Both the position numbers and the translations under genes were made by a program. Under the pieces are notes generated by a model. That model was given only the letters and a program-made list of their open reading frames with translations. It ran no database searches and had not been told where the DNA came from. 64,000 nucleotides of DNA from Paenibacillus rhizosphaerae (lineage in GTDB: Bacteria; Bacillota; Bacilli; Paenibacillales; Paenibacillaceae), in the NCBI RefSeq assembly GCF_014192015.1, contig NZ_JACHXJ010000001.1, positions 1,178,001-1,242,000 on the forward strand. Reading direction: 5' to 3'. This document shows, piece by piece, positions 37,597-60,685 of this stretch; the first letter of the stretch is position 1, and each line of letters starts with the position of its first letter.

Positions 37597-37732
37597 AAAC
37601 ATGCAGGCGAAGGGACATCCGCATAGACGATCGGCGAGTTATCACCGGTATCACGCTGGCATCTTTTTTGTTTGACAAGACCGACAAACGGAGCTACAGT
37701 TAATCATGAACTTATAAAAATCATACGAAAAT

Positions 37733-37822
37733 CCACTAGGGGAGCTGCGGTAGGCAGCTGAGACAAGTGATCGCTTGGACCCTTTGAACCTGATCCGGTT
37801 AATACCGGCGGAGGGAAGTGGA
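37733..37822 (+). promoter_or_regulatory. TPP riboswitch (THI element)
   Basis: The aptamer core is clear: GGGG near 37739, GCTGAGA around 37756-37762, then CCCTTTGAACCTGATCCGG at 37780-37798 and TACCGGCGGAGGGAAG. It binds thiamine pyrophosphate and shuts down the tenA-thiM-thiD operon. A terminator at 37885-37911 supplies the expression platform. Confidence 0.95.
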
Positions 37823-37884
37823 GCGGGCCTTTACATACGCAACTTTCCGGATGAGATACATTCAGGATGACACTGCAAGCAGCG

Positions 37885-58807: not shown

Positions 58808-58836
58808 TTGAACCTGTGCCTGGGGTATGGTAAATT
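58808..58836 (+). promoter_or_regulatory. Promoter of the vat-vgb operon
   Basis: TTGAAC (58808-58813) and TAAATT (58831-58836) are 17 nt apart, with TG at 58828-58829 giving an extended -10. The predicted start is near 58843, which would leave a leader of about 300 nt before vat. Confidence 0.65.
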
Positions 58837-58873
58837 AAGGGCATTCAAGTCATGAAAGGGTGACCTTAGGCCA

Positions 58874-58885
58874 ATGATCTACTAA
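58874..58885 (+). CDS. Candidate three-codon leader ORF (Met-Ile-Tyr)
   Basis: ATG ATC TAC TAA follows the SD-like GAAAGGGTGA (58854-58863) by ten bases. Its stop codon overlaps the first arm of the anti-antiterminator hairpin (58884-58893). A ribosome held at the start codon would cover that arm and release the antiterminator. Group A streptogramins and related drugs block early peptide bonds, so a very short ORF is a suitable sensor. Translation is not proven. Confidence 0.5.
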   Translation: MIY

Positions 58886-59042
58886 TCCTATCCACACAAG
58901 ACAATCGTTTGAAACGATGTTCAGGATAGGATTCGTGCGGGCTTTTTTAAGAACTCATGCCGGTTGGGCATGTGCTTCTTAAATACGGGATCATGGCGCA
59001 CCCTCTTGACGAGAGGATTCAGCGGATTTCCATGCGCATGCA

Positions 59043-59080
59043 GCCTCCTGTCCTGAACATCGGGACAGAGGCTTTTTTGT
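59043..59080 (+). terminator. Attenuator terminator in the vat leader
   Basis: GCCTC and TGTCC (59043-59053, one bulged C) pair with GGACA and GAGGC (59063-59072), followed by six T. It is 63 nt before the vat start codon. Confidence 0.9.
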
Positions 59081-59142
59081 GTGGCTATAAGGCAACCGGA
59101 TGCGCTATCCAATCTGCTGAACGATCGAAAGGAGTGACTTGC

Positions 59143-59808
59143 ATGCCAGGTCCTAACCCGAACACGAAGTACCCGATACCCGGGGACACAAATATGCAGT
59201 TTATCAAAAACGTGATTACCATGCCGAACCTGATTGCGGGGGATTATTCTTACTACTATGCGATCAACGGGGAGTCGTTTGAAGATCAGGTGTTATATCA
59301 TTACGAATTCTTAAGTACCAAGCTGATCATCGGCAAGTTTTGCTCGATTGCCGGAGAGGCGCGCTTTATGATGGACGGAGGCAACCATCGGATGGACGGC
59401 TCCACGTTTCCTTTTAATATTTTCGGAAACGGTTGGGAAGCCCACACGCCAACATTGGATCAGCTGCCGATCAAGGGGGATACCGTCGTCGGAAACGACG
59501 TCTGGATCGGCCGGCGGGCGGCCATTCTGCCGGGCGTGAAAATTGGCGATGGAGCGATCATCGCGGCCGAAGCCGTCGTGACAAGGGACGTCGAGCCCTA
59601 CACTATCGTCGGCGGCAACCCCGCGAAGGAAATCCGCAAGCGCTACGAACCGGAGGTGATTGCCGAGCTTCTGGAGATCCGCTGGTGGGATCACGATATC
59701 GAAGAAATCGAGCGGTTCATGGGTGCCATTACCAGCGGGGACATGGATCTGCTCCGGCAGATGGGCAAGCCAAAGCTGCAGGAAGGAGGAAGCCCAGATG
59801 AGAATTGA
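59143..59808 (+). CDS. vat: Streptogramin A O-acetyltransferase (Vat family)
   Basis: This 221-residue left-handed beta-helix enzyme of the xenobiotic acetyltransferase family acetylates the hydroxyl of group A streptogramins, so that they no longer bind the ribosome. Seen: the Vat N-terminal block ([20 protein letters not shown]), catalytic His82 in [13 protein letters not shown], and hexapeptide-repeat sequence [20 protein letters not shown]. Length and His position agree with VatA/VatD. The start is ATG 59143 behind AAAGGAG. Its 3' end overlaps vgb by 11 nt, making a coupled operon under the attenuator. Confidence 0.93.
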
Positions 59809-60685
59809 AATGGTGGAATTCCCCTTGCCTTTGCCGGACTCGGGGCCTTACGGTATCACGGCTGGCAGAGAAGGGACTGTGTGGTTCACGGAGCAGAAAA
59901 GGAACCGGATCGGAGCCCGGAATGAGCGCGGCAAGTTTACCGCGTTTGACGTGCCGACGCCAAATGCGGGGGTGATGTCGATCCTTTGCGGAGTAAATGG
60001 GGATCTTTGGTTTAACGAGTATCATGCCGGTCAAATCGGCCGGATGACACCAGGCGGAGAGTTCACGGAGTATAAGCTCCCGGACCCGGGCTGTGCGCCG
60101 TTTGGTCTCGCTGAAGGGCCTGACGGGGCGATCTGGTTCACCGAGATGATGACCGGCCGGATCGGCAGGCTCAGCCCTGCGGGTGAAGTGACCGAGTACA
60201 AGCTTCCTCATGAGGGTGCCTTTCCATCCTTCATCACAACGGGCAGTGACGGGAAGCTATGGTTTACGGAAAACCAAGGGAATCGGATCGGCACCATCTC
60301 GCTGGACGGTAAGGTGACTCACTACATACTTCCGACGCCGGGTTCCGCACCGGTCGGGATCACCGCGGGTCCTGACGGTGCGCTCTGGTTTGTGGAGATC
60401 GCCGGGAATCGGGTCGGCAGAATCACGACGGACGGTCAGATAAGCGAGTATCCGCTATCTACACCTGGCGCGAAGCCTCATGCGATCACTTCCGGCATCG
60501 GCCAGGACCTTTGGTTTACGGAATGGGGTGCGAACCGGATCGGCCGCATCACCGTGGAGGGTAAACTGACCGAATACGACATTCCGACGCAGGGGGCGGA
60601 ACCGCATGGCATCGCTGTCGCCACGGACGGGACGGTGTGGTTTGCCGAGGAAAGCAATCAGCTTGGACGATTAACGATCAAATAG
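59798..60685 (+). CDS. vgb: Virginiamycin B lyase (streptogramin B lyase)
   Basis: This 295-residue seven-bladed beta-propeller linearises group B streptogramins by an elimination reaction, without hydrolysis. Repeats of the type [14 protein letters not shown] recur about every 42 residues. The active-site residues known for Vgb are all at the same numbers: His228, Glu268, His270 and Glu284. The start ATG 59798 lies inside the end of vat behind GGAGGAAG. With Vat it gives a two-step defence against both streptogramin components. A terminator follows. Confidence 0.94.

Follow-up and report, generated by a model that had tools for sequence, protein, structure and literature searches.

A predicted ribosome-operated attenuator before vat-vgb of Paenibacillus rhizosphaerae and related leaders before other resistance-type genes in Bacilli

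The vat-vgb genes and their leader

In the window, i.e. the whole stretch of 64,000 nucleotides of Paenibacillus rhizosphaerae DNA that was analysed, a gene for a Vat-family streptogramin A O-acetyltransferase and a gene for a streptogramin B lyase-like protein lie behind a structured leader (Table 1). With the NCBIfam Vat(I) model (NF033468) vat scored 414.4, just below the cut-off of 415, and vgb did not reach the cut-off of 600 of the Vgb(B) exception model. The frame of vat is open upstream of its start, which gives an ORF at 58957-59808; no convincing ribosome-binding site was seen for this ORF and it was taken as due to chance. The genome holds one vat (E up to 1e-40) and one match to the leader model R1 (see below). 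Both enzyme families are shared with VatI and VgbC of Paenibacillus sp. LC231 (passages of PMC5155152). As 'attenuat', 'leader' and 'operon' are absent from the main text of PMC5155152, the regulation of VatI and VgbC was seemingly not studied there. A leader-vat-vgb unit that is 91% identical over 100% was observed in P. cellulositrophicus (L145/L274) on plasmid unnamed1 (NZ_CP045296.1, a record of 896,837 bases titled plasmid), where the kinds of genes upstream of the unit match those in the window.

Table 1. Positions in the window of the leader features and of the genes behind them
Feature	Position	Strand	Basis
Promoter-like TTGAAC-N17-TAAATT, TG before the -10	58808..58836	+	read by eye from the sequence
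AAAGGGTGA, 10 nt upstream of the uORF and likely its ribosome-binding site	58855..58863	+	conservation
SL-1, anti-antiterminator (58868-58872/58940-58944, 58880-58882/58935-58937, 58884-58893/58924-58933)	58868..58944	+	folds; 91.9% of cells paired
uORF ATG ATC TAC TAA (Met-Ile-Tyr-stop, three codons)	58874..58885	+	sequence; ATG invariant in 55 A3 rows
Arm A, overlaps the uORF stop codon	58884..58893	+	sequence, folds, alignment
Arm B, common to SL-1 and the antiterminator	58915..58933	+	folds, alignment, covariation
U6 directly 3' of SL-1, possible RNA polymerase pause (inferred)	58943..58948	+	sequence
SL-2, middle hairpin	58949..58980	+	fold, -13.7 kcal/mol
SL-3 (intrinsic terminator) with U6; arm C, 59046-59062, forms its 5' side	59043..59078	+	folds, terminator scan
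vat, streptogramin A O-acetyltransferase (Vat family)	59143..59808	+	NCBIfam Vat family 314, cut-off 300
vgb (streptogramin B lyase-like), overlapping the 3' end of vat	59798..60685	+	NCBIfam Vgb(B) 359.1

The leader 5' of vat-vgb is 230 nt long. A sequence similar to its putative promoter, TTGA...TATGGTAAATT, was seen in several of 16 leaders inspected; a consensus promoter scan of the window's leader region returned no promoter. The lower stem of SL-1 (AGGCC at 58868-58872 with GGCTT at 58940-58944) places the start of the uORF in a bulge, and its A:B helix, read from the sequence, is an exact 10-bp pairing of AATCCTATCC (58884-58893) with GGATAGGATT (58924-58933). Arm B is also complementary to arm C: 58915-58931 and 59046-59062 pair over 17 nt with one G-U and no mismatches, with a duplex energy of -31.4 kcal/mol. 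The original prediction had described these two competing helices, and had called the longer one hard to explain by chance. Both were recovered as described, and the 17-nt helix is the longest in the leader (no more than one G-U allowed, pairing partners over 60 apart), the maximum in 300 dinucleotide shuffles being 13.

From the sequence, the folds and conservation, the anti-antiterminator and the antiterminator are mutually exclusive, with one arm in common. A predicted intrinsic terminator (hairpin 59043-59072, followed by six T at 59073-59078) precedes vat and would, by sequence and folding, be destroyed by the antiterminator. Folding with and without a mask over 58874-58893 had been proposed as a check on such a switch; when this segment was forced unpaired, the antiterminator indeed replaced SL-1 and the terminator in the minimum free energy (MFE) structure of the window leader. 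Between SL-1 and the terminator the window leader lacks the NusG pause motif TTNTTT, and no Rfam family was found at threshold over this leader. The only match at gathering level in the window is a TPP riboswitch at 37728-37833.

Conservation and modelled folding of the arms

Conservation was examined in an alignment (A3) of 55 leaders, the decayed leaders L054 and L083 being excluded from both the alignment and the folds. The likely ribosome-binding site, the uORF and the pairing arms are conserved, and the loop of SL-1 varies in length and sequence. Within AAAGGGTGA the T and the last G are invariant and the other seven bases are at least 90% conserved. The same degree of conservation (at least 90%) holds for the first four T of the U6 behind SL-1. 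A terminator hairpin stands ahead of a T run in all leaders (55/55), and TTNTTT occurs up to 60 nt after the element in 27/55, where about 10 are expected.

Covariation of the arms in homologous leaders had been named as a further check, and it came out differently for the three helices. For the antiterminator, 79.8% of cells are paired and 11/17 pairs show changes on both sides (a value reached in 1/500 shuffles), with 62 both-side-changed cells and 36 further pair types (0/500 shuffles); with the partner slid as a control, 3-7 pairs and 13-36 cells were counted. This part of the prediction is borne out. Covariation of SL-1 is modest: 5/18 pairs are changed on both sides (17/500), no excess over the 1-7 of slid versions, so that the case for SL-1 rests on the high percentage of paired cells (91.9%, vs 28-54% when slid). 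Covariation of the terminator is weak. Its cells are paired in 74.0% (47/500), its changed cells number 16 (227/500; 17 or 21 in two slid versions) and 5 pairs are changed on both sides (4/500), a count hampered on this alignment by loop gaps.

At 58925 and its partners, arms A, B and C read T-A-T in three related leaders (L090-L092) vs C-G-C in most, and at 58927 they read G-C-G in two related leaders (L088, L089) vs A-T-A in most. Such three-way changes are expected from mutually exclusive pairings, and each may be a single event. In a few leaders one of the pairings is broken at single positions; the cores of the arms barely vary.

The switch was modelled on the 55 leaders with a ribosome footprint that masked 16 nt on each side of the uORF start, after the vmlR toeprint. 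In the full RNA without ribosome, SL-1 and the terminator formed in 55/55 and the antiterminator in 0/55. In RNA that stopped 10 nt before the U run, the unmasked leaders gave SL-1 in 40/55 and the antiterminator in 15/55; with the start codon masked, the antiterminator formed in 55/55 and SL-1 in 0/55. A control mask in the middle of the leader gave SL-1 in 47/55 and the antiterminator in 8/55 of these shortened RNAs. At equilibrium in the full RNA, the start-codon mask yielded the antiterminator in only 31/55, and the terminator persisted in 28/55. Since full-length masks at equilibrium often keep the terminator, the model in general needs a kinetic order in which the antiterminator is made before the 3' side of the terminator. 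Stricter thresholds were applied to the full RNA of three sets: A3, a set from the order and class (52 tested of 60) and a motif-pattern set (92 tested of 102). Unmasked, SL-1 together with the terminator was found in 51/55, 49/52 and 86/92, respectively. The mask gave the antiterminator without terminator in 27/55, 19/52 and 33/92, and the control mask in none of the three sets. The window leader itself switches under both full-length criteria.

Probable kinship with known leaders and a proposed mechanism

The original prediction pointed to attenuation of vmlR and lmo0919, and this is indeed described in passages of PMC9226507 and PMC8079631. The leader of Bacillus subtilis vmlR (RF02452, ncr1575) has its Met-Ile-Asn uORF in the bulge of SL-1, followed by SL-2 and a terminator SL-3 (passages of PMC9226507). 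The window leader is like it in the three-codon uORF beginning Met-Ile in the SL-1 bulge, in the order of SL-1, SL-2 and terminator and in an antiterminator that would allow read-through. It differs in the uORF (MIY vs MIN), in the genes downstream (drug-modifying enzymes vs ABC-F), in the lack of a mid-leader TTNTTT and in having no clear counterpart of SL-4, the hairpin hiding the Shine-Dalgarno sequence: that of vat (59127-59137) is mostly unpaired in the local MFE fold.

RF02452 aligns to the window leader over its full length (1-212) with 23.3 bits (E 0.31), and the gathering threshold of 60 bits is not reached. Two unrelated families, queA (22.8 bits, E 0.039) and BcKCsr2 (20.4 bits, E 0.015), lie far below their cut-offs, with matches located on the side of the terminator or 3' of SL-1; because their E-values are lower, the window's own match to RF02452 has no weight alone. 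Of 18 relatives, however, 8 match RF02452, with at most 52.9 bits (E 4.5e-5), three of them (L057, L069 and L059) at E <1e-3. The same family model gives 177-198 bits for the leaders of B. spizizenii, B. tequilensis and B. atrophaeus. These B. subtilis-group leaders carry the uORF ATGATTAAC, which is the vmlR uORF of PMC9226507 (in its passages on vmlR), and have an ABC-F gene downstream in the two tested (L141, L215). Conversely, R2, a model of 38 elements that come only from family-level relatives of the window, finds these three leaders at E 2e-8 to 1e-9. It also finds 30/30 loci supplied, among them 24/24 MIN-type ABC-F loci (from 43 of this type) at E 7e-10 to 3e-5, all 30 having been picked by motif pattern, i.e. 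partly by design, and one (L174) being the locus of a training row. In Brevibacillus laterosporus a vat lies behind an MIN leader. As the relatives bridge RF02452 and R2, each model finding members of the other over their full length, the comparison makes common descent of the window leader and the vmlR leader probable despite the insignificant match of the former.

In Listeria, rli53 of lmo0919 (RF01481) likewise has a three-amino-acid ORF overlapping an anti-antiterminator/antiterminator pair and is induced by lincomycin (passages of PMC8079631). RF01481, however, matches 8/18 relatives weakly, the best at 28.9 bits vs a cut-off of 70, and does not match the window leader at E up to 5. Short uORFs are also found in the leaders of cplR, VmlR2 and LsaA (MR[I/M], MK[L/Q] and MAGN), which unlike the window leader precede only ABC-F genes (passages of PMC10201436). 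For cplR attenuation was shown, and its terminator also hides the ribosome-binding site of the gene (passages of PMC10201436).

The uORF, the arms with which it is jointly conserved, the covariation of the antiterminator and the modelled switch make it very probable that the vat-vgb leader is a ribosome-operated transcription attenuator with two exclusive predicted folds, in which transcription of the genes would require that ribosomes be jammed on the uORF by a drug. The proposal of a ribosome-type attenuator in the original prediction is in this way strengthened. In the off state, ribosomes translating the uORF would finish or leave it, SL-1 (A:B) would tie up arm B and the terminator would stop transcription near 59078. 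In the on state, a drug preventing formation of the first peptide bonds would arrest the ribosome at the start of the uORF. By the 16-nt toeprint of vmlR, this ribosome would cover the RNA to about 58890, i.e. most of arm A. The freed arm B could then pair with arm C before the 3' side of the terminator is made, and the polymerase would read through into vat and vgb, presumably on one transcript. The inducer would most likely be a streptogramin A, perhaps a lincosamide or a pleuromutilin. Induction by streptogramin A is here inferred by analogy: virginiamycin M and lincomycin induce VmlR, the uORF of which (AUGAUUAAC) gives the +16 toeprint (passages of PMC9226507), and for a tripeptide uORF, inhibition of translation by pristinamycin IIA and stalling at the start codon have been described (passages of PMC12421871). 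Since a stall at the start codon depends little on codon context, the variation of codons 2 and 3 of the uORF agrees with it.

This variation also bears on an amino-acid or charged-tRNA attenuator, in which slow decoding of Ile and Tyr instead of a drug would open the switch. Ile is kept at codon 2 in most elements. Nevertheless, codons 2 and 3 vary at a constant uORF length of three codons, and those downstream genes that could be labelled are of resistance type or efflux genes and not amino-acid genes, which makes such an attenuator highly improbable. Two competing folds would equally be the anatomy of a small-molecule riboswitch or a protein-bound leader that does without the ribosome. The conserved bases, however, are those of the likely ribosome-binding site, the uORF and the pairing arms and not of the SL-1 loop, and among Rfam families, none of which reached threshold, RF02452 has the highest score of those matching over their full length; either of these is therefore exceedingly improbable.

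A leader acting on translation, by hiding the ribosome-binding site of vat with transcription not being ended, would have a precedent in the additional layer of this kind in vmlR and cplR (passages of PMC9226507 and PMC10201436). In the window, the Shine-Dalgarno sequence of vat lies outside all arms, about 50 nt past the U run, and is mostly unpaired locally, and it is on the terminator that the arms converge, so that translational attenuation is judged very unlikely. The terminator-like site detected by the scan could finally be a plain terminator with a fortuitous pairing upstream and no switch. As the 17-bp helix exceeds anything in the 300 shuffles and the antiterminator covaries, this is scarcely credible. 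A ribosome-operated attenuator remains the preferred reading.

Distribution of the leader family and the genes behind it

Among 100 genomes of the genus, a vat-like match (E up to 1e-40) was found in 49, with 52 copies in total. Of these, 14 are at least 70% identical to the window vat (the VatI-clade) and 11/14 have a homologous leader, the exceptions being the VatI-clade vats of G010, G023 and the second copy of G032. No match to model R1, which consists of 11 leaders, was seen beside any of the 38 more distant vat copies of these 100 genomes. In the genus R1 gave 21 matches in 19/100 genomes: 11 before vat, one directly before vgb, one before a GNAT gene (uORF MDC) and two before an MFS gene, one of them decayed. 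Five further leaders (L048, L049, L052, L055 and L056) are followed by an apparent vat remnant, as judged by eye, and an open vgb frame of 296 aa in four and 257 aa in one. The leader can therefore persist after vat has become a remnant and would then serve vgb. The remaining match is a decayed leader that lost its uORF and stands before a broken vat (L054), so that leader and vat seem to decay together there. As vgb is present in the fetched stretch of only 5/11 genus leaders before vat, the leader tracks vat more than vgb.

At wider range, R1 was found in 54/394 genomes and 12/19 genera of the family, and R2 in 52/392 genomes and 13/49 genera of the order and in 90/398 sampled genomes and 43/145 genera of the class; the three samples overlap, and searches over more than 40 genomes used stricter filters (E up to 0.001), so that absences are not proof. 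In a pattern scan of named genomes, 78 of the 80 matches listed (of 102) bore names that we take to be those of Bacilli, and the other two were bins named Oligoflexales and Competibacteraceae. Of mobile vat genes, three stretches out of many vat plasmids were searched with R2 (E up to 5), and no match was found in vgbA-vatA of E. faecalis, vgb-vat of Priestia megaterium or vatE of L. reuteri, the last with only 59 bases upstream.

A three-codon uORF is present in 111/115 distinct model-found elements (109 ATG, 2 GTG), a count that is partly circular because the RNA models were trained on uORF-holding leaders. As background, with the uORFs included, 430/7926 ATGs of these loci on the same strand are followed by a stop at the fourth codon. 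Since the motif-pattern set fixes most letters of the uORF by design, uORF types were counted on the model-found elements only. Codons 2 and 3 are most commonly IY (57), followed by IH (8), KY (8) and IN (7) among the 115 elements; NN, RC, DC, KN and more occur as well, with the length constant at three codons. The ABC-F leaders L090-L092 have the uORF MKY, a longer SL-1 with an extra apical insert and A-U for G-C at one position in all three arms.

Downstream genes were labelled by similarity search for 217 fetched leaders, duplicates included: ABC-F (70), Vat (37), MFS type b (31), MFS (25), Vgb (18), GNAT (6), Cfr (2), tetracycline-protection-like (1) and 27 unlabelled. A role in resistance is not apparent for some of the unlabelled genes, e.g. 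a polyhydroxyalkanoate depolymerase-like gene behind leader L260. In a profile check, four ABC-F genes passed the ABC-F cut-off of 380, one also that of Vga; MFS and GNAT representatives were recognised at superfamily or domain level only. Leader L059 stands before a gene of the Cfr family of 23S rRNA methylases (558, cut-off 468). Leader L080 stands before a gene for a tetracycline-protection-like GTPase (733.8, just below the cut-off of 775). The latter pairing is odd, since tetracycline is not a peptidyl-transferase drug.

Exchange of genes behind the leader was followed on a tree. Of the 217 leaders, 202 have a recognisable terminator and 174 were left after identical and unlabelled rows were dropped, near-copies of one locus from two collections being retained. 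This tree has 26 changes of gene label (least possible 8, shuffled mean 99). On its well-supported branches no fewer than 4 changes are needed for Vat, and no fewer than 4 for Vgb. As support is weak (39/171 inner branches starred), the count is approximate and speaks for switching only in part; label switches from Vat to Vgb can be explained by loss of vat from the operon. The window leader groups with four vat leaders of close kin (99*), some of them one locus from two collections, inside a group of 86 leaders with eight gene labels (98*).

The occurrence of this leader family before unrelated resistance-type genes in many Bacilli makes it a likely reusable sensor of ribosome-jamming drugs. 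We lean towards the view that one family of three-codon-uORF attenuators acts as a plug-in sensor of peptidyl-transferase drugs across Bacilli. It would have been passed among unrelated resistance genes (vat, vgb, Cfr, ABC-F, two MFS kinds, tetracycline-protection-like GTPase and GNAT), would outlive the loss of its first gene to serve the next and would even be stacked in tandem. In the open-licence literature found, earlier descriptions of drug-sensing three-codon attenuators are gene by gene, for ABC-F proteins. The suggestion that the vat-vgb attenuator may be undescribed holds in so far as the open-licence PMC matches listed contain no description of an attenuator before vat or vgb, two 'vat' text matches in PMC10219788 being an author name; as a kind it is known from vmlR and lmo0919. 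Sharing of a leader among unrelated resistance genes was likewise not described among the matches listed. In the present set, one leader family stands before drug-destroying enzymes, a ribosome methylase, pumps and ribosome-protection proteins. Should the sensor reading be true, many silent resistance genes of soil Bacilli would have one drug sensor in common, and cross-induction is predicted, e.g. streptogramin or lincomycin turning on cfr or pumps. The leader would then also provide an RNA signature for inducible resistance genes that may escape ordinary susceptibility testing. Whether the codons of the uORF (MIY, MIN, MKY, MRC) tune the choice of drug is testable.

A second, weaker R2 element lies near the first at L153 and L164, from which tandem or decayed copies may be common. 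At L122 (G441 contig 170, 22035-22134 and 22247-22352) two attenuators stand in series before a Cfr-like gene, each with a ribosome-binding-site-like sequence, a uORF MYN, the arms of SL-1 and a terminator-like hairpin.
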